A stretch of 64,000 nt of DNA, taken from NCBI RefSeq assembly GCF_000802205.1, contig NZ_CP012850.1, positions 682,001-746,000 on the forward strand, in the 5' to 3' direction. The translations under genes and the position numbers were made by a program. Below the pieces are notes generated by a model, which saw nothing but the letters and a program-made list of their open reading frames with translations, had not been told where the DNA came from and ran no database searches. Source of the DNA: Candidatus Nitrosocosmicus oleophilus. Lineage in GTDB: Archaea; Thermoproteota; Nitrososphaeria; Nitrososphaerales; Nitrososphaeraceae. This document shows, one piece after another, positions 16,657 through 31,004 of this stretch; the first letter of the stretch is position 1, and every line of letters starts with the position of its first letter.

Positions 16657-17889
16657 ATGATCTGTATTATCCATATAAAGATGATAGATAGTCTAAATGA
16701 TCTATCTAATTACGATAAGGAGAATAACTCTGAGAGTACTTTCAATAGTTCCAGCGATGGTATTCCAAGATCAAATGCCGATCCGAATAGTTTAACTAAA
16801 GAAAGTAATCAAGAACAAATAAATTTTATTAATTTTACACAGCAATATTGTATCGGATTTATCGATATAATTAATTCCACTCAAGAAACTGCAAAAATAA
16901 AAGACCCTAAAAAGTTAAGAAAATATTATTCACTTTTTTTGAATTCGATGAGTACTATACTTAATCAATACCATGGAAAAATTATTAAAAATAGTGGAGA
17001 TAATTTGTTTTTTTACTTTCCAAAAACATCAAATCCTGGTGATCTACATGCATTGCAAAACGTTTTTGATTGCAGCAATTCAATGATTAAATCAAACAAA
17101 CCTTTGAATCAAGAACTGGCAGCAGAAAACTTACCTCCAGTCCATTATAGAATTAGTATGGATTATGGATTAGTAGAAGTTGCCTTGGGCTCTAATAACA
17201 AGGAAGTAGATTTATTTGGCTCGGTAGTAAATGAATGCGCTAAAATAAACAGCTTGTCTAAATCAAATGGATTGGTAATAGGAAAGAACTTGCATAGTTT
17301 ATTAATCAATTCAACATTTGGTAAAGAATTTGAAATATCTGAGATTGAACTATCATTGGATGGGAATAGCAAAAATATTAATTCCTGTTATACAATAATA
17401 GATAATAGAAATTTATTAATCGCAAACAAACGGGATGAAGCCCTCAAACACCAAGTCCCTTCTAATGAAATCAAACGAACTAGTCAAATAGAAAACAAAA
17501 AGTACAATATCTTACTAATAGATGACGAGGAGGATATTCTATACACATTTCATTCACTGTTAAAAAAGGAAGGATATCAAGTACATTCTTATTCAAATCC
17601 TATCGAAGCTCTAGAAAACTTGGCAAAAAAAAATTCTCATAATTATGATTTGGTAGTTATGGATATAAGAATGCGCGAGGTGAGCGGAATAAGGCTATTC
17701 TACAGATTTAAAGCGATAGATCCATATTTGAATATCATTTTTGTAACTGCTCTAGATCTGGTTGGCGAGTTCGTCGAAGCTTTACCTGAAATCAAAATGA
17801 CTGAAATTGTGAGAAAACCTTTAAACGGTCAACAGTTTTTATCGATCATAAAAAGGAAGTTAGCTGAAACTAAAACAGTTGGTAAATGA
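16657..17889 (+). CDS. Class III nucleotidyl cyclase-like domain fused to a C-terminal receiver
   Basis: 410 residues. Residues about 65-250 form a class III cyclase homology domain. The two metal Asp positions are seen in GFIDIINST and KNSGDNLF, with the Lys expected for adenine recognition before the second and an Asp in DLFGSVVN. The Asn of the transition-state pair is present (VVNECAKIN), but the Arg is replaced by Lys, so activity may be altered. Residues about 285-405 form a receiver (LLIDDEEDI, VVMDIRMREV, VRKPL). This inverted order (output first, receiver last) recurs in the paralogue at 29506-30678. No membrane helix is seen. The start is ATG 16657; ATG 16681 is possible. Confidence 0.85.
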   Translation: MICIIHIKMIDSLNDLSNYDKENNSESTFNSSSDGIPRSNADPNSLTKESNQEQINFINFTQQYCIGFIDIINSTQETAKIKDPKKLRKYYSLFLNSMSTILNQYHGKIIKNSGDNLFFYFPKTSNPGDLHALQNVFDCSNSMIKSNKPLNQELAAENLPPVHYRISMDYGLVEVALGSNNKEVDLFGSVVNECAKINSLSKSNGLVIGKNLHSLLINSTFGKEFEISEIELSLDGNSKNINSCYTIIDNRNLLIANKRDEALKHQVPSNEIKRTSQIENKKYNILLIDDEEDILYTFHSLLKKEGYQVHSYSNPIEALENLAKKNSHNYDLVVMDIRMREVSGIRLFYRFKAIDPYLNIIFVTALDLVGEFVEALPEIKMTEIVRKPLNGQQFLSIIKRKLAETKTVGK

Positions 17890-22330: not shown

Positions 22331-22773
22331 CACTTTCTTTTTTCTTTTCTCAGAAAATCAACTAATCGATTATTTGGACAAGAGGCATCTTTTTCATACA
22401 TTATGACTAAAATGAAATAATGATACTGTAAACAAATTACCCGTTATTTAGAAATGATGGTCTATAATAATCCGATACTGTCACGCTTACTTTTCTATCA
22501 TCAATAAGTGATAGTGACATGTCCATATGTAAACAGGAGTGATTATTTTTATGCTATGAATTTATTACTCTAATTTTTCTACCTAACCAAATTATTTACG
22601 TTTCCAAAACAACCAATTATCTATCTATTCATGTCTTATTTTTGATTAACTTGATAAGAAACGTTGATAATTAGATGGTCAAATATTTTCGAATACTTTT
22701 ATTACTATTTATTAATATACACAAATAAAGTTGTAGTACTGGGAGACTGGACTAAAAATTGTTTAAAAAAGGA
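22331..22773. other. Intergenic region with a nested hairpin
   Basis: 443 bp between convergent genes. CTATCA (22495-22500) pairs with TGATAG (22509-22514), and TGTCAC (22479-22484) with GTGACA (22514-22519). The two stems share a base, so they are alternatives or an imperfect longer stem. This could be a transcript-end structure; function is unknown. Confidence 0.4.
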
Positions 22774-23037
22774 TTATTGTTGACCTAGAGCATTGTTACC
22801 GAAGTTAAGGTTCAATGATGCATCTACATTATTACACGATGCTAATGATGTTCCATTTTCAGAAAAACATGAGGAGCTCTGTAATGTTTCAGATTGCTGT
22901 CCAATTCCTTCTTCTGCTACATTTTTTTTGTTTTTTGATGCAAAAACTGTGTTATGGTCTATAGTTATTACTGAACCAATAAGTGCTGTTGCAACAAATA
23001 TTGTCATAAATGCCAATCTGGTTTGATTTTTATTCAT
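22774..23037 (-). CDS. Small exported protein ending in a GNNALGQQ motif
   Basis: 87 residues. The N-terminal signal peptide (RLAFMTIFVATALIGSVITI) is followed by about 55 mature residues with two cysteines (SSSCFSENGTSLASC). The Asn-rich tail is SLNLNFGNNALGQQ. The ATG at 23037 is preceded by a GTATATTTAAC box. I know no family function. The size, Cys pair and patterned Asn/Gly tail suggest a small extracellular structural or assembly protein, but this is inference. It is transcribed opposite to its exported neighbour at 21740. Confidence 0.65.
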   Translation of the reverse strand: MNKNQTRLAFMTIFVATALIGSVITIDHNTVFASKNKKNVAEEGIGQQSETLQSSSCFSENGTSLASCNNVDASLNLNFGNNALGQQ

Positions 23038-23448
23038 AATTAAAAATGTTAAATATACTACATTAAACTTGCCAATACTAATTCTGCTTGCTTTTCTCTA
23101 TAGATTTTTCTAAAAGAATATTTTGTAAAAGTTTAATGCATGTTTTATGGTCAATTCTAAACAATAATAAATCTCCTATTAAAGATGTGTCAAAAAAAGA
23201 TTACTTATTTTTGAAAAGAACTTGTGTCAGCTAACCAGTGATATACTTTAATATATTTTTAAGAGTTTATGTGAAAAAAGACTCTTACTCCTTATGATCA
23301 TCATACGTAGGAATTTAGATATCTGCTGACGGTAACAAAGAAATTCCTATATTTACTAACGCTATCCATTGAAAGATATCAAATTCATTGCAAACAGACT
23401 CATATATTGTATTTAGATTCCTGCGATGCGATTGTAATCAATCTGAGA
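23038..23448. other. Intergenic region, nothing recognised
   Basis: 411 bp of AT-rich DNA upstream of the 87-residue gene and downstream of the Gly-Gly-Asn gene. No gene or strong structure was seen. Confidence 0.45.
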
Positions 23449-24042
23449 TTAGCTATTGCCACCATTGCCACCATTGCCACCTATACTGTTTCCACCATTG
23501 CCACCATTGCCACCTATACTGTTTCCACCATTGCCACCATTGCCACCATTGCCACCATTGCCACCATTGCCACCATTGCCACCATTGCCACCATTGCCAC
23601 CATTGCCACCATTGCCACCATTGCCACCATTGCCCCCTATACTGTTTCCACCATTGCTACCTATACTATCGACAGCATTGTTCTTTCCTGTTCTATCGTC
23701 CGATTTACTTGAACATGTGTCATCTCTATCATTGCCACCATTGCCACCATTGCCACCATTGCCACCATTGCCACCATTGCCACCATTGCCACCATTAATT
23801 CCAGTGCCATTACTACCATCTAGACCATTGCTACCATCTAGACCGTTGCTACCATCTAGACCGTTGCCACCATCTTTACCCTTTACATTACATGAGGAAA
23901 AAAGCGTATCTTTGGTCATAGTATTCGAAGAATTAGACAAAGTTTCGTTGTCTACATTACCAGTGCCAGAATAAGCGCTTTGGTTGCCAATTAAACATAA
24001 AAATAAAGTACTAAAAATTCCCCAAATTAGTAATTGATTCAA
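23449..24042 (-). CDS. Exported Gly-Gly-Asn repeat protein
   Basis: 197 residues. The start is TTG 24042, about 28 bp after an ACTTTATATC box, so probably leaderless. A short signal peptide (LLIWGIFSTLFLCLIG) is followed by a Ser/Thr/Asn segment. Next come GLDGSN repeats, a GGN run of about seven triplets, a 24-residue Asp/Ser/Cys spacer, and a second GGN run of more than fifteen triplets broken by NSI inserts. Glycine falls at two of three positions, as in proteins expected to form polyglycine II helices. An extracellular structural role is inferred. The spacer has one Cys and the N-terminal part another. Confidence 0.75.
   Translation of the reverse strand: MNQLLIWGIFSTLFLCLIGNQSAYSGTGNVDNETLSNSSNTMTKDTLFSSCNVKGKDGGNGLDGSNGLDGSNGLDGSNGTGINGGNGGNGGNGGNGGNGGNGGNDRDDTCSSKSDDRTGKNNAVDSIGSNGGNSIGGNGGNGGNGGNGGNGGNGGNGGNGGNGGNGGNGGNGGNSIGGNGGNGGNSIGGNGGNGGNS
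23455..23796. repeat. 9-bp tandem repeat tracts encoding Gly-Gly-Asn
   Basis: On the plus strand ATTGCCACC is repeated head to tail. The main tract is 23455-23639, interrupted by TATACTGTTTCC inserts. A second tract is at about 23729-23796. Copies are nearly perfect, so copy number may change by slippage while staying in frame. Confidence 0.9.
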
Positions 24043-24444
24043 TAGTGATTAATAACAGGTCAAAGATATAAAGTATTTTGCCTAATTCTTATTACGTAAA
24101 ATCAATGGGTTATATTTTAAGGTTTAATGGATCTTTTCTAAAATGGGTTAAATTATTCTGTATTAAATTAAATGAAAATCTACAAAATACTACCTTCTTC
24201 CTTTCTATTAATAAATAATTTGCAAAAAATTCTAATAATAGGCAACTGCAGTGGTATTCATTTTTAGTATACCAAGCTAAAAATTTTTTAAAAGCTGAAA
24301 CATTTCATAATTGGGACATTAAGATAACTAGGATTCATATCTTAAATCTTGGTAAAAATGTAGATTTAAATTATCATGAACAATTTAAAGGTCATTTTAT
24401 ATTTACTGCAAATATACTATGCACGTTTAGATATGTGCTAATAC
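24043..24444. other. Divergent intergenic region between two repeat-protein genes
   Basis: 402 bp holding both promoters: an ACTTTATATC-type box for the minus-strand gene at about 24066-24076, and a TTTTATATTTAC box near 24396-24407 for the plus-strand gene. No RNA gene was seen. Confidence 0.5.
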
Positions 24445-24828
24445 ATGAATATCAAAAAGAAATCAATAATACTCACATTTTTGGGCATTCAATTACTATC
24501 AGGAATTCTATTGTTTACAAATCCATTAAGTGCGAACGCTCAATTGGACTTTTTGAATTTAGGCGAGCAAGTATCACCTAATGATAATCAAACCAGCTTT
24601 AGTTCTCTATTTTCAACACCCGAAAATACAGGATCTCAAAATACAAGCAGTAATCAAGATGATATTTTAATTCCTAGTATGTCGTTCCATGATGGTCAAG
24701 ATGGTCAAGACGGCTTATCAGGTCAAGATGGTCAAGACGGCTTATCAGGTCAAGATGGTCAAGACGGCTTATCAGGTCAAGATGGTCAAGACGGCTTATC
24801 AGGTCCGGAAAGGACAGTTATACCATAA
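24445..24828 (+). CDS. Exported protein with collagen-like Gly-X-Y repeats
   Basis: 127 residues. The signal peptide (SIILTFLGIQLLSGILLF, then LSANAQ) is followed by a 55-residue Asn/Ser/Gln-rich segment. Four perfect nine-residue repeats GQDGQDGLS follow, then GPERTVIP. Every third residue in the repeat block is Gly, so the block is a short collagen-like stretch of about 12-13 triplets. There is no Pro in the triplets except at the end, and no assembly domain, so triple-helix stability is uncertain. It may be a natural short form or a contracted allele. It is divergent from the Gly-Gly-Asn gene. Confidence 0.78.
   Translation: MNIKKKSIILTFLGIQLLSGILLFTNPLSANAQLDFLNLGEQVSPNDNQTSFSSLFSTPENTGSQNTSSNQDDILIPSMSFHDGQDGQDGLSGQDGQDGLSGQDGQDGLSGQDGQDGLSGPERTVIP
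24694..24801. repeat. Four perfect 27-bp tandem repeats
   Basis: The 27-bp unit begins GGTCAAGATGG and ends GGCTTATCA. It occurs four times with no mismatch and codes for GQDGQDGLS each time. The lack of drift, even at third positions, points to recent expansion. Confidence 0.95.
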
Positions 24829-25456
24829 TCTTTTGTAAATCTCTTTTTTTGCTTAAATACCATCACTCATTATTTCCTTTATACCTGATTCGCTACTTCA
24901 TTTGGAATAGCATAACATAGCATCAAGAAAAGTAAACTGATCAGGTCCGTCTGCTGAATATTATTATGGTATATCCAAATATGTCCCTCAAGGGTTCAGA
25001 CAAGATTATTTATTAATCAAGATGGATAATGAATGTTTTGATAGGTGTTCATTTGCCTAATCTATATCCAAAATAGCATTGTATGAACCGAGAATTTGGC
25101 GAGTGAGACGTATTTCCGAATTGAATTACCTATTTATTGTTATTGTAGCTTTGTTCTCTTTCTACGAACGTTCCTTAAATGTTTTATATATCACCGTGAT
25201 CTGTCATTTCAAAATATCGGAGTTATAATCCATTTTCAAAAAGAGAATGATACCTGAATATTCAATTTTTGTTCGTATTATTAACTTAAATTTGAATATC
25301 TCTAATAAGGTTCAAATGAAAAAATTGGAATCTATCTAATATTGTTCAACTGAAAAATTGGAACTAATTTCTACTATACTATTACTATAGATTATATCCA
25401 ATTATTTTTCCATAATAAAAAACCTTATATAGCTACTTTGTGAAAGGTACACAACT
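24829..25456. other. Upstream region of the 809-residue repeat gene, with a direct repeat
   Basis: 628 bp. GTTCAAATGAAAAAATTGG (from 25310) and GTTCAACTGAAAAATTGG (from 25344) form an imperfect direct repeat 34 bp apart, about 60-110 bp before the promoter box CCTTATATAGC at 25423-25433. Two turns of spacing would be 21 bp and three 31.5 bp, so protein binding on one face is possible but not shown. Confidence 0.5.
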
Positions 25457-27886
25457 TTGATCAATAACAAGTATATGCTATTTAGCATGGTATTTTTCTT
25501 AGCCATGACTTTATTAGGTCCAATTTATACAAATCCTGCTCTTGCAGCTAATAACGGCGGCTCAGGCGGTGACGGCGGCTCAGGCGGTAGCGGCGGTAGC
25601 TCAGGTGGCGCCATATCAGTTGGCGGCTCCGGCGGGTCTGGCGGCAATAGTGGCTCTGGCGGTAACGGTGGTAACAGCGGCGACGGCGGCTCTGGTGGCG
25701 ACGGCGGCGGCAGTGGCGGTGGAGGAGACAATGAAGCCAATGGTGGCGACGGCGGTGACTCTGAAGGCGGCGACGGAGGAGACTCTGAAGCTGGTGACGG
25801 TGGCAACGGCGGCGACAGCGGCGATGCAACAAGCGGTGACTCCGACGGCGGCTCAGGCGGCGACGGCGGCTCTGGCGGCGACGCTGGTTCCGGCTCACTC
25901 TTCTCAGTAGGAGACGATGATGATGAAGATAATACAGGCGGCGACGGCGGTGCAGGCGGCGACGGAGGCGAAGGCGGCGATAGCGGTGACGCTGTTTCCA
26001 TAGGCGGCTTTGGCGGCGACGGCGGCGACAGTGACACTGGTGGCGACGGCGGTACAGCTGGTAACGGCGGTAACGGCGGTGAAGGCGGTATTGCTGTGGG
26101 CATTGGTGACGACGGAGAAAACGAAGCCAATGGTGGCGACGGCGGTGACTCTGAAGGCGGCAACGGAGGAGACTCTGAAGCTGGTGACGGTGGCAACGGC
26201 GGCGACAGCGGCGATGCAACAAGCGGTAGCGCTAACGGTGGCTCAGGCGGCGACGGCGGCTCTGGCGGCGACGCTGGTTCCGGCTCACTCTTCTCAGTAT
26301 TGAGTAGCAATGAAGGAACTAACACTGGCGGTACAGGCGGCGACGGCGGTACAGGCGGCGACGGCGGTGAAACCGGTCTAGCATTTACACTAGGCGGCTT
26401 TGGCGGTAACGGCGGCGACAGTGCTGCAGGCGGCGCAGGTGGCAATAGTGCTACAGGCGGCGACGGAGGCGAAGGCGGTTTCATCTTAGGCTTTGGCGAT
26501 GATCAACAAAACGAAGCCAATGGTGGCGACGGCGGTGACTCTGAAGGCGGCAACGGAGGAGACTCTGAAGCTGGTGACGGTGGCAACGGCGGCGACAGCG
26601 GCGATGCAACAAGCGGTAGCGCTAACGGTGGCTCTGGCGGCGACGGCGGCTCTGGCGGCGACGCTGGTTCCGGCTCACTCTTCTCAGTATTGAGTAGCAA
26701 TGATGAGGATAATACAGGAGGTTCTGGCGGCTCTGGCGGCTCTGGCGGTGCAGGCGGTGAAACCGGTCTAGCAGCAGCTGTAGGCGGCTTTGGTGGCGAC
26801 GGCGGCGACAGTGACACTGGCGGCGACGGAGGTACAGCTGGTAACGGCGGTGCAGGTGCTGCAGGTGGTATTATTATAGGCGTAGGTGACGGACAAGAAA
26901 ACGAAGCCAATGGTGGCGACGGCGGTGACTCTGAAGGCGGCAACGGAGGAGACTCTGAAGCTGGTGACGGTGGCAACGGCGGCGACAGCGGCGATGCAAC
27001 AAGCGGTAGCGCTAACGGTGGCTCTGGCGGCGACGGCGGCTCTGGCGGCGACGCTGGTTCCGGCTCACTCTTCTCAGTATTGAGTAGCAATGAAGGAACT
27101 AACACTGGCGGTACAGGCGGCGACGGCGGTACAGGCGGCGACGGCGGTGAAACCGGTCTAGCATTTACACTAGGCGGCTTTGGCGGTAACGGCGGCGACA
27201 GTGCTGCAGGCGGCGCAGGTGGCAATAGTGCTACAGGCGGCGACGGAGGCGAAGGCGGTTTCATCTTAGGCTTTGGCGATGATCAACAAAACGAAGCCAA
27301 TGGTGGCGACGGCGGTGACTCTGAAGGCGGCAACGGAGGAGACTCTGAAGCTGGTGACGGTGGCAACGGCGGCGACAGCGGCGATGCAACAAGCGGTAGC
27401 GCTAACGGTGGCTCTGGCGGCGACGGCGGCTCTGGCGGCGACGCTGGTTCCGGCTCACTCTTCTCAGTATTGAGTAGCAATGATGAGGATAATACAGGAG
27501 GTTCTGGCGGCTCTGGCGGCTCTGGCGGTGCAGGCGGCTTTAGTAACTTTGCAGCTTCTATAGGCGGCTTTGGTGCTGATGGCGGTAACAGCGAAAACGG
27601 CGGTAACGGCGGTACAGCTGGTAACGGCGGTGCAGGCGAAGACGCTGGTATTGCTATAGGTATTGGTGACGATGCAGAAAGCGAAGCCAATGGTGGCGAC
27701 GGCGGTGACTCTGAAGGCGGCAACGGAGGAGACTCTGAAGCTGGTGACGGTGGCAACGGCGGCGACAGCGGCGATGCAACAAGCGGTAGCGCTAACGGCG
27801 GTGCAGGCGGTGCAGGCGGTGCAGGCGGCAACGCAGGTTTATTTTCATACTTCAAAGTCTTTGACTTTGATAACCTATTCACTTAA
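25457..27886 (+). CDS. Large exported acidic Gly-rich repeat protein (130-residue units)
   Basis: 809 residues. The start is TTG 25457, 29 bp after the box at 25423-25433; ATG 25475 is an alternative. A signal peptide (MLFSMVFFLAMTLLGPIY, then PALAA) is followed by almost pure GGx sequence rich in Asp, Glu, Ser, Asn and Ala. The 130-residue unit begins NEANGGDGGDSEGG at residues 92, 222, 352, 482, 612 and 742 and carries one hydrophobic SGSLFSV motif and one GGFGG motif. Between the signal peptide and the aromatic tail (LFSYFKVFDFDNLFT) I find no Arg and only one Lys, in that tail. A secreted, negatively charged structural or matrix protein is inferred. It is GC-rich, unlike all its neighbours. 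Confidence 0.85.
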   Translation: MINNKYMLFSMVFFLAMTLLGPIYTNPALAANNGGSGGDGGSGGSGGSSGGAISVGGSGGSGGNSGSGGNGGNSGDGGSGGDGGGSGGGGDNEANGGDGGDSEGGDGGDSEAGDGGNGGDSGDATSGDSDGGSGGDGGSGGDAGSGSLFSVGDDDDEDNTGGDGGAGGDGGEGGDSGDAVSIGGFGGDGGDSDTGGDGGTAGNGGNGGEGGIAVGIGDDGENEANGGDGGDSEGGNGGDSEAGDGGNGGDSGDATSGSANGGSGGDGGSGGDAGSGSLFSVLSSNEGTNTGGTGGDGGTGGDGGETGLAFTLGGFGGNGGDSAAGGAGGNSATGGDGGEGGFILGFGDDQQNEANGGDGGDSEGGNGGDSEAGDGGNGGDSGDATSGSANGGSGGDGGSGGDAGSGSLFSVLSSNDEDNTGGSGGSGGSGGAGGETGLAAAVGGFGGDGGDSDTGGDGGTAGNGGAGAAGGIIIGVGDGQENEANGGDGGDSEGGNGGDSEAGDGGNGGDSGDATSGSANGGSGGDGGSGGDAGSGSLFSVLSSNEGTNTGGTGGDGGTGGDGGETGLAFTLGGFGGNGGDSAAGGAGGNSATGGDGGEGGFILGFGDDQQNEANGGDGGDSEGGNGGDSEAGDGGNGGDSGDATSGSANGGSGGDGGSGGDAGSGSLFSVLSSNDEDNTGGSGGSGGSGGAGGFSNFAASIGGFGADGGNSENGGNGGTAGNGGAGEDAGIAIGIGDDAESEANGGDGGDSEGGNGGDSEAGDGGNGGDSGDATSGSANGGAGGAGGAGGNAGLFSYFKVFDFDNLFT
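25730..27800. repeat. 390-bp tandem repeat array with 780-bp higher-order unit
   Basis: The word ACGAAGCCAA or its variant recurs at exactly 390-bp steps, with unit starts at 25730, 26120, 26510, 26900, 27290 and 27680 (the last unit partial). Segments 26116-26757 and 26896-27537 differ at one base in 642 (26245 A versus T). Pairs of units have therefore been copied as 780-bp blocks recently. Confidence 0.95.
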
Positions 27887-28572
27887 ACCTGAACTAACTA
27901 CTACATACTAGCCTAACAGAACAGAATATGATGAAAAGGTAACTTTTCATCTTTATTTTATTATATTATTAAAAGAAATTGAAACTTTATTAATCCCATA
28001 TAAGTGTACGTTAGAAAAAAAGAATAGCATCTAAAACAATTCATTAGATCGATAATTTTTATAAATTTGTGTTCTATTGATAATTTATTTCGACGACTAA
28101 TGGTAGTGTTATTAAGATATCACTTGAAGGAATCATAAAATATATAAAGTACGCATGTCAATCTACTTTGTTTAAAATACTTTTATGTTCTCCGTAAAAG
28201 GAGTATTTATACTTATCCACAAATTACAACAATTTGAATTAAGTTACAATGCATCTTGATCCACTTTTATCAATCATCTGTTGTATAGTTACTAAACATA
28301 AGAAAACAAAGACGATTGACTATATCCAGACCAGGTCCCATAATATGAATGCTGTCTTCTTTATTTTTCCTTATTTTAAATAATATACTTGCGCTAACAG
28401 GCAAATAATATTCTCATGTTTATTTTACATGTGTTATTATATATCTAAATAAGTAATTTAGTCTATTATTATGATCATATTCATAGGATCTTCGAATAGC
28501 GTAATAAGTAACTAAATAATGGATAAAAATGATTAATCCCTTAAAAGAGATTAAGGGATTAATTAACCTAGT
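27887..28572. other. Intergenic region between convergent repeat-protein genes
   Basis: 686 bp of AT-rich DNA. Apart from the hairpin at 28532-28563 nothing was recognised. The composition drops sharply to AT-rich right after the 809-residue gene ends. Confidence 0.5.
28532..28563. terminator. 13-bp perfect inverted repeat, candidate transcript-end hairpin
   Basis: ATTAATCCCTTAA (28532-28544) pairs fully with TTAAGGGATTAAT (28551-28563) across a 6-nt loop. It starts 9 bp beyond the stop of the minus-strand Gly-rich gene (28573), so it lies in its 3' UTR. It is not followed by a long T-run on that strand, so it may be an RNA-stability element and not a true terminator. Confidence 0.6.
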
Positions 28573-29169
28573 TTAAATTGTTTCTGTTCCTGGGACTTTA
28601 GGTATTAATGAGTCTTCTCCTTCTTCATTGCATGCAAATGCATTGCAAATAGCTATTGCATCTCCACCTTTTCCACCGTTACCGCCTGCGCCACCGTCAG
28701 CATTTCCACCGTTTGTCTCACTAGTACTACCGCCGTCACCACCAGCACCTGCAGTAGAGTCACCACCAGCACCACCAGTAGTGCTACCACCGTTGCCACC
28801 GTTAGCAGAGTTCTCTCCTACATACTCATCTGCACCGACTAATTCTAATGCTGCATCAAGTAATTCTTCGCCTATATTGCCTCCAGCACCGCCTTCTCCG
28901 CCGTTACCGCTATTACCACCAGCGCCACCAGCTTCGCTAGCACCACCTTCACCACCGTCTCCAGCAGTTGCGTCTGCTCCGCCTCCTTCACCACCATCAC
29001 CACCATTGCCAGCGTCTCCACCGTTTCCAGCAGTTTGCGTTAATGCATTTGCAAGTGAGGTTGATGGAACCATTGTTGTCAAAAGAGCTAGTGCAACTGC
29101 ACCAAGCACTGCCATATACAATAATGAGCTTTTTTTCTCATTCTTGGATTTTTCATTACGTTGAGTCAT
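28573..29169 (-). CDS. Exported Gly-rich (GGx) protein
   Basis: 198 residues. A charged N-terminus of 16 residues is followed by one hydrophobic export segment (LLYMAVLGAVALALLTTMV, then STSLANA). Two GGx blocks rich in Asp, Glu and Ala (about residues 47-100 and 117-170) are split by a non-repetitive helix-like segment (EELLDAALELVGADEYVG). The C-terminal 25 residues have a Cys pair (ICNAFACNEE) and no Gly repeat. The DNA repeats are less exact than in the other Gly-rich genes, so this copy looks older. An exported structural role is inferred. The ATG at 29169 is clear. Confidence 0.78.
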   Translation of the reverse strand: MTQRNEKSKNEKKSSLLYMAVLGAVALALLTTMVPSTSLANALTQTAGNGGDAGNGGDGGEGGGADATAGDGGEGGASEAGGAGGNSGNGGEGGAGGNIGEELLDAALELVGADEYVGENSANGGNGGSTTGGAGGDSTAGAGGDGGSTSETNGGNADGGAGGNGGKGGDAIAICNAFACNEEGEDSLIPKVPGTETI

Positions 29170-29505
29170 ATTAAAAATTATTGTAGATCATAATTATATT
29201 ATAATTTGGAGTGATAATTTCATTATAATTTTCTAGTATTATATTTGGTAGAATTATTAACATTAGAATTTTGAATGTATGGGCGTAAATGGGGGATATC
29301 TTGAATATTTTGAATATAAAGGAGAAATTTGTCATTTATTTACTTTTAAATTGTATTGTAGTATTCTGGTCGCCACTAATCCATCAGTAATTGATTCTAG
29401 ATGTACTGCTTAGAACTGTTAATTGTCAAATAAGTTATCTTGCTGTTGTCTTAATTATTGACTTTTCTGCAAGTCAATTCCATGCCATGTCTTCTAACTA
29501 ATTTC
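29170..29505. other. Intergenic region, promoter side of the Gly-rich gene
   Basis: 336 bp. AT-rich boxes (ATTATATTATAATTT near 29190-29205) lie upstream of the minus-strand Gly-rich gene. The rest lies downstream of the cyclase-receiver gene and shows nothing recognisable. Confidence 0.45.
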
Positions 29506-30678
29506 TTATTTTCTTAATGCTATATTTATTTTGTCTAATAGTTGTTGGGATTCTACAGGTTTTCTCAAGATATCTGAATCATTAATTTCAGGAAATAAGC
29601 TTAACAATTCCCAAACAGCGTCTAAGGCCGATATAAAAAGTATCTTTACGTTGGGATTCATTATTCTAAATTTGGAGTATAATTTAATACCATTTATTCC
29701 CGGCATCCGTATATCCATTATAACTAAATCGTACAAATATGGATTCGTTGTTGAAAAGTCATTGAGGGCTTTGTATGGATTTGAAAAAGAGGTTATTTTA
29801 AAGCCTTGACTTTTAATTATCGCTGAATATGTAAAAAGAATGTCTTTGTCATCATCTATCAACAAAATGTTAAAAGACGAGTTATTTCTATTTTGATTAA
29901 TACGCTTACGTTCAGCATGTAATTCTAGTATTTTACTTTCTATTTCTTTTTGTTTATTAATATCTTCAAATCGACGTACAGAATAAGTTGTATATACATT
30001 TCTATTATTCTCTGAATGATGGTCGTTACCATGGTTTTTACGTTCTATTTCCTCAAATACATAGTCATCGAAATATGGCATTTCTTTAATGACTTGATAA
30101 AGATCTCTATGAATAATCATTTGATTTGATGAAGCTAAATGATTTATTTTAGAACATATATTTACAGGTGTTCCAAAAATATCACCGCTATGAGAATTTG
30201 CTACGATAGCTAATTCTACTTTACCATAACTTGCACTAATCCTATAATTTATAGGAGGTAAACCATTTAAATCCAACAACAGATCCATTTGATCCTTTGC
30301 ATCAATCATCGATAATCCACATTCAATTACATTTTGAAAATCTAAATGGTTACTCTCATTCATTGTACTTGGAAAATAGTACAACAAGTTATCGCCAGCG
30401 TTTTTAACTACTTTGCCCCCATGACGACTTATAATTGAGGTCATGGTATTGAGGAATACAGAGTAGTATTGCTTGATCTTTTTAGATTCTAATATGTCAT
30501 ATGTATTGTTTGTAGAATCAATTATATCAATTATGCATACACAATAATTATTGGAAAAATCAACAAAGGTTATTTGATTATCCTGTGGACTATCTTCTTT
30601 TAGGGAAAGATGTATTTTGCTTTCATCTTTTGTTGTACTATTTTTATTTTCCAAATAATCCGCCAACTTCTTATTCAT
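29506..30678 (-). CDS. Class III nucleotidyl cyclase-like domain fused to a receiver (paralogue)
   Basis: 390 residues with the same order as the gene at 16657. The cyclase-like domain spans about residues 35-225, with metal Asp positions in CVCIIDIIDST and KNAGDNLLYYF, and Asp in GDIFGTPVN. The Asn of the catalytic pair is present, with Lys in place of Arg (VNICSKIN). A coiled linker follows, then a receiver (LLIDDDKDI, VIMDIRMPG, LRKPVE). It should be soluble. Phosphorylation of the receiver probably controls the cyclase part, or the part acts as a nucleotide sensor if inactive. The partner kinase is unknown; the histidine kinases at 13.9-19.8 kb are candidates. Confidence 0.85.
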   Translation of the reverse strand: MNKKLADYLENKNSTTKDESKIHLSLKEDSPQDNQITFVDFSNNYCVCIIDIIDSTNNTYDILESKKIKQYYSVFLNTMTSIISRHGGKVVKNAGDNLLYYFPSTMNESNHLDFQNVIECGLSMIDAKDQMDLLLDLNGLPPINYRISASYGKVELAIVANSHSGDIFGTPVNICSKINHLASSNQMIIHRDLYQVIKEMPYFDDYVFEEIERKNHGNDHHSENNRNVYTTYSVRRFEDINKQKEIESKILELHAERKRINQNRNNSSFNILLIDDDKDILFTYSAIIKSQGFKITSFSNPYKALNDFSTTNPYLYDLVIMDIRMPGINGIKLYSKFRIMNPNVKILFISALDAVWELLSLFPEINDSDILRKPVESQQLLDKINIALRK

Positions 30679-31004
30679 TTTCTACTGGTTTAACTGGACC
30701 ATTAAACTGATGCAACTTCTTCTAATGTGTATCTTTTATAGATAGCAGCATGAAAATATCTGGTTTTCATGTTCAATTAATTCATGTAATGACGAGGTAT
30801 TAATATGTAAATATGTGATCTTGTTAAGCATTACCAAAATATCACAATAATTATATATAAAGGTTGTCAGTAAATGTTTTTATTTAATGAAATTGGAAGC
30901 ATACCCAACATTCAAAATAATAGATGGACGATAAACGTGAAAGGAGAAGATATCCAAATAACTCCTTACGTAGTTTTTCTAACTACTACCAACTAATTTT
31001 TTTG
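30679..31004. other. Intergenic region, nothing recognised
   Basis: 326 bp. It holds the promoter side of the cyclase-receiver gene (AT-rich, with a GTATATATAA-like stretch absent) and the 3' side of the next minus-strand gene. No RNA gene was seen. Confidence 0.4.

Follow-up and report, generated by a model that had tools for sequence, protein, structure and literature searches.

How did a single gene of a soil-dwelling, ammonia-oxidising archaeon come to be built largely from a regular 390-bp DNA repeat, and what kind of protein could tolerate, or even exploit, such growth? The gene, here called gene C (25457..27886, plus strand), lies in the window, a 64,000-nucleotide stretch of the Candidatus Nitrosocosmicus oleophilus genome, and is a single open reading frame with a TTG start encoding a secreted-looking GGX glycine-rich repeat protein of 809 aa. 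TRF places the array of 390-bp units at 25726..27839 on the same strand, with a period of 390 and 5.4 copies, and direct comparison puts the unit starts at 25726, 26116, 26506, 26896, 27286 and, for a partial sixth unit, 27676. The two approaches thus agree with an earlier note on this DNA, made from the sequence alone, which had noted that unit starts follow each other at exact 390-bp steps five times running; its description of the repeats as exact holds for the period but not for the copies, which are 78-99.7% identical. Alternate units are closer to each other than to their neighbours, as that note had also recognized: units 2 and 4 share 99.7% and units 3 and 5 share 89.5% identity, versus 79-84% for neighbours. 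The tails follow a B-A-B-A-B pattern, in which units 1, 3 and 5 are mutually 73-78% identical, units 2 and 4 are the same and odd-even pairs share 58-68%. The higher-order two-unit block is real. At the unit heads, ~108 bp are near-invariant in all six units, and in units 2-5 ~190 bp agree at all but one position, synonymous sites included, while the tails diverge. This conserved core, at 25733..25837 (plus strand) in unit 1, recurs every 390 bp and is a likely recombination substrate.

The two near-exact copies of the block, 26116..26757 and 26896..27537 (both plus strand), were found again to differ at one position in 642 bp (26245, A/T), which amounts to a single synonymous codon difference (TCA/TCT) in 213 codons. 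We shuffled synonymous codons within the ORF in 1000 trials and recomputed the identity of the block copies; the shuffles gave a mean of 78.4% (0.784) and a maximum of 83.7% (0.837), against 99.8% (0.998) observed. Because the observed identity far exceeds this expectation, the block pair reflects recent copying of DNA, beyond protein conservation alone. A recent duplication of 780 bp had been proposed, and this is borne out in part: near-identity covers 642 of the 780 bp, whereas the final ~132 bp of units 3 and 5 are only 73% identical. Given these tails, the block arose either by a 780-bp duplication with later replacement of part of one tail or by a shorter conversion tract. An invariant core with divergent tails would be the pattern expected of repeated exchange or gene conversion through the shared core. 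The one mismatch may itself be the edge of an exchanged tract and not a fresh mutation, since at 26245 unit 2 reads as unit 1 does and units 3, 4 and 5 share the other base.

We propose that gene C was lengthened recently, when a two-module block would have been copied by homologous recombination between the recurring cores, either as unequal exchange or as gene conversion. As 390 is divisible by three, the reading frame is kept. In-frame growth by two-unit blocks, as proposed earlier, is supported by an array that is wholly coding (390 bp being 130 codons), by a copy that is near-exact at synonymous sites and by the two-unit orthologues of two other Nitrosocosmicus genomes.

The encoded protein is built from five related modules of 130 residues and half of a sixth. 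It begins with a signal-peptide-like N-terminus, LINNKYMLFSMVFFLAMTLLGPIYTNPALA (25457..25546, plus strand), and the orthologues start with MIN or MTN at the same place; a putative TATA-box-like element, CTTATATAG (25424..25432, plus strand), lies ~25-30 bp upstream of the TTG. The 779 residues after the 30-residue N-terminus comprise 42.6% Gly, 12% Asp and 12% Ser and no Cys, with 130 acidic residues (D+E) against 1 basic (K/R/H). Glycine spacing peaks near 3 residues, higher than in every shuffle; 44% of residues fall within GGXGG, and a GGX domain is present, the X of its triplets being D in 26 cases, S in 23, N in 16 and A in 8. Each module holds ~8 GGX tracts with short variable turns between them, the linkers being short and acidic or hydrophobic; three of them contain hydrophobic residues (SLFSVLSSN, LAFTLGG, FILGFGDD). 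Gene C has no match in Pfam (E<=1) or NCBIfam, and a PDB sequence search returned chance matches only (E 0.6); neither an anchor domain nor a membrane segment at the C-terminus was seen. AlphaFold2 gave a mean pLDDT of 35 for three units (390 aa, 5-sequence alignment) and of 33 for 1.5 units (195 aa, 9-sequence alignment), with no confident residue in either model.

The gene also stands out in composition. Its GC content is 61%, versus 34% for the window, because of its glycine codons, which are GGC in 208 cases, GGT in 99, GGA in 25 and GGG in 1, whereas nearby genes use mainly GGA; Asp and Asn codons likewise favour a C ending. The GGC preference, mostly accompanied by raised C-ending Asp, is common to the C orthologues and is thus a trait of the gene C family. 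High expression as the sole cause found no support: in this genome, AmoA favours GGA.

Among known systems, the GGX proteins of the PGRS or polyglycine-sandwich type would be the closest analogues of gene C in the way they work. The PE_PGRS proteins of mycobacteria are exported or surface proteins with long GGX tracts (X = Asp, Asn, Ser or Ala), modular and tolerant of in-frame indels (PMC10216338). Gene C shares the long GGX tracts and the modularity, but it is archaeal, far more acidic and without a Pfam match, and a long, regular module of 130 aa, repeated in blocks of two, is something that we did not find described for PGRS. It was rejected as a PE_PGRS protein proper, as it has no PE domain (Pfam E<=1, NCBIfam). 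Polyglycine-II bundles are known from gp38, the tail adhesin of phage S16, with 10 motifs, and from the snow flea antifreeze protein, with five or six helices (PMC6851490). Glycine-rich motifs with short variable loops between them are common to both and to gene C; both are short, however, gene C has no PDB sequence match, and its polyglycine-II fold is putative. In PGRS and polyglycine-sandwich proteins, the fold can survive the gain or loss of whole helices (PMC10216338, PMC6851490). Collagen-like adhesins such as Scl and Lcl find their likeness in the neighbouring gene B, which has a true GXY repeat; gene C differs from them in having GGX rather than GXY and no LPXTG anchor, and was dismissed as collagen-like, its longest strict GXY run being 2 triplets. 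With the variable-unit surface adhesins of fungi and bacteria, gene C, whose secretion is judged from the N-terminus, shares near-identical in-frame repeats; it differs in its higher-order B-A-B-A-B arrangement and in that its variation is known between species (2 vs 5.4 units).

Gene C adjoins three other genes, and all four products are secreted-looking and glycine-rich or collagen-like. Gene A (23449..24042, minus strand; 197 aa), with orthologues in genomes G005, G006 and G012, combines a short GXY stretch with long (GGN)n tracts; a 9-bp DNA repeat of 18.7 copies at 23455-23634 encodes its GGN triplets. Gene B (24445..24828, plus strand) encodes a small collagen-like protein whose GXY runs match Pfam PF01391 (Collagen) with 30.1 bits against a cut-off of 27.2, and its 27-bp repeats (GQDGQDGLS) are exact and in frame at 24694-24805 (TRF: 4.1 copies, 100% matches). 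Gene D (28573..29169, minus strand; 198 aa) is GGX glycine-rich, with a signal-like N-terminus and a conserved C-terminal AIAICN..C motif. Its start and upstream DNA (29156-29260) are 81-83% identical in two species (L037 9452-9555, L040 1521-1625), which suggests a conserved promoter upstream of gene D.

We surveyed 15 Nitrosocosmicus genomes, one per species, G000 being that of the window. Genes A and B occur together in 4 of the 15 (G000, G005, G006 and G012), with C and/or D beside them; C is found in G000, G005 and G006 and full-length D in G000, G005 and G012, where the member missing from each of the fragmented G006 and G012 assemblies may lie past a contig end. G013 has one weak A-type match; a neighbouring gene there is 96.6% DNA-identical to the window, and the array region could not be located in its assembly. 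Species differ in unit number: C orthologues of the same layout hold two units in G005 (308 aa) and G006 (290 aa), against the 5.4 of G000. An alignment-based contig scan gave one named match, JAKDMR010000140.1 (Candidatus Nitrosocosmicus sp. 48_S62), corresponding to G006; a pattern scan of contigs with gene C gave 88 matches, 0 of them confirmed. The C profile had no match at E<=0.001 in 55 genomes of other genera in the family, and the plasmid and phage collections gave none. GGX DNA-pattern matches in other genomes were rejected as relatives, being mostly GGM tails; in the genome that holds the window, such a tail ends a 564-aa ORF, which we read as a thermosome subunit.

A sulfate adenylyltransferase tree places the carriers G000, G006 and G012 with the non-carriers G010 and G014, and the carrier G005 with the non-carriers G007, G002 and G009. 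With carriers and non-carriers intermixed in this way, the distribution of the cluster is patchy, through loss or transfer. Its position varies as well. In G005, G006 and G012 the cluster genes lie near alcohol-dehydrogenase-like and TatD-like genes (named by sequence reading), whereas 1.6 Mb separate the TatD-like orthologue from the cluster in the genome of the window. G012 has the window flanks 22717-23173 and 29471-30884 at 88% identity with 213 bp between them; the 6.3-kb block 23174-29470, with all four glycine-rich genes, is absent at this matching site (L094 2207-2420), and G012 carries the cluster at another site. Considering these joined flanks and the distant TatD-like orthologue, the block occupies different sites in different species. 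A mobile-element origin was looked for, and the ends of the block have no notable repeats, direct or inverted.

Our main reading, to which we give a probability of roughly 0.55, is that the product of gene C is an extracellular protein, structural or adhesive, with a length that depends on how many modules it has, and that recombination between the cores made it grow. The coding array, the recent copying of DNA, the module homology across species with 2 vs 5.4 units and the conservation of the cluster are observed, whereas we infer export, fold, a role in coat or adhesion and the recombination pathway. Outside the cell, the GGX tracts would pack as polyglycine-II-type helices to form a rod or sheet, the length of which would be set by the number of modules, and the protein would work alongside the GGX and collagen-like proteins encoded next to it, as part of the cell coat or of the matrix of aggregates. 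This packing is without support from prediction, as AlphaFold2 gave no fold from its tiny alignments. A role in a coat or matrix is suggested by context: Nitrosocosmicus, unusual among ammonia oxidisers, has no S-layer genes and no visible S-layer, cryo-tomography of two of its species shows hair-like ~30-nm surface structures of unknown make-up, and the composition of the outermost layer is stated as unresolved (PMC11559005); in aggregates of N. franklandianus, no adhesion homologues account for attachment (PMC12448741). The cluster cannot be a genus-wide substitute for the S-layer, since it is absent from most Nitrosocosmicus genomes, and the mature gene C protein has no N-glycosylation sequon, which argues against its being the proposed glycoprotein coat itself. 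More tentatively, and as less likely than not, the products of the four genes may build a matrix of protein or a hair-like coat in those S-layer-less species that carry them, with block recombination in gene C tuning coat length between lineages.

Other explanations need to be weighed against the main reading. The array could be an assembly artefact, the assembler having duplicated or collapsed the near-exact block so that the true unit number differs; indeed, 642 bp with one mismatch exceed short-read resolution, and assembly errors from repeats are well documented (PMC6868369). We nevertheless regard this as improbable, because the genome is one 3.43-Mb contig (3,430,706 bp), the block copies carry one base difference and have different right-hand neighbours, and the alternation takes in units 1, 3 and 5 as well, units that differ clearly from one another. 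A real array might still be a selfish or neutral low-complexity expansion without function, its unit number drifting. The patchy occurrence in the genus would fit such an expansion, as would the 9-, 27- and 390-bp repeats in adjoining genes, which suggest a slippage-prone region, and the fast divergence of gene C, which is ~51% identical to its orthologues while a core protein shares 91% identity with its G006 counterpart. However, the frame is open over 809 codons, the signal-like N-termini and linker motifs are conserved, the GGC/GGT glycine preference is common to the C orthologues, unlike in background genes, and cluster members stay together in at least four species, so that neutral expansion is unlikely.

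Function might also reside in charge rather than in fold. Gene C would then be a disordered polyanionic filler, forming a hydrated, charged brush that surrounds the cell and binds cations such as Ca2+, Mg2+ or ammonium. The acidic excess after residue 30 and the lack of order in both AlphaFold2 models are in line with this, and an ammonium-concentrating effect has been proposed for the acidic surface layers that other ammonia oxidisers have (PMC11559005). Against it, the strict GGX triplets and the regularly spaced hydrophobic and linker segments, kept across species, suggest a packed repeat, and we consider the brush a serious though rather doubtful candidate. Calcium could instead be bound by an RTX-like beta-roll, as gene C is Gly/Asp-rich and secreted-looking and contains 44 GGxGxD matches; yet it has 0 full GGxGxDx[hydrophobic]x nonapeptides and no match to a Pfam calcium-binding repeat, which makes this very unlikely. 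The cluster offers concrete candidate proteins for the covering, aggregation and attachment of S-layer-less Nitrosocosmicus, and the two-module repeat would be a marker of rapid surface-protein evolution in an archaeon. We found no paper describing the cluster proteins in the open-access literature, which is weak evidence of novelty.

Several minor observations concern the surroundings of the cluster and the rest of the genome. A weak match to the collagen-like and GGN profile lies at G000:C1:2418741-2418995, inside a 1554-aa open frame. Two paralogous proteins flank the glycine-rich cluster (16657-17889, plus strand, and 29506-30678, minus strand); in both, an adenylate/guanylate cyclase-type domain is fused to a C-terminal response-regulator receiver domain, an arrangement unusual for an archaeon. 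Beside the cyclase/receiver gene, G012 carries a 3.5-kb insertion (L094 3837-7327) between window positions 30884 and 30886, which suggests that this area often gains and loses genes.
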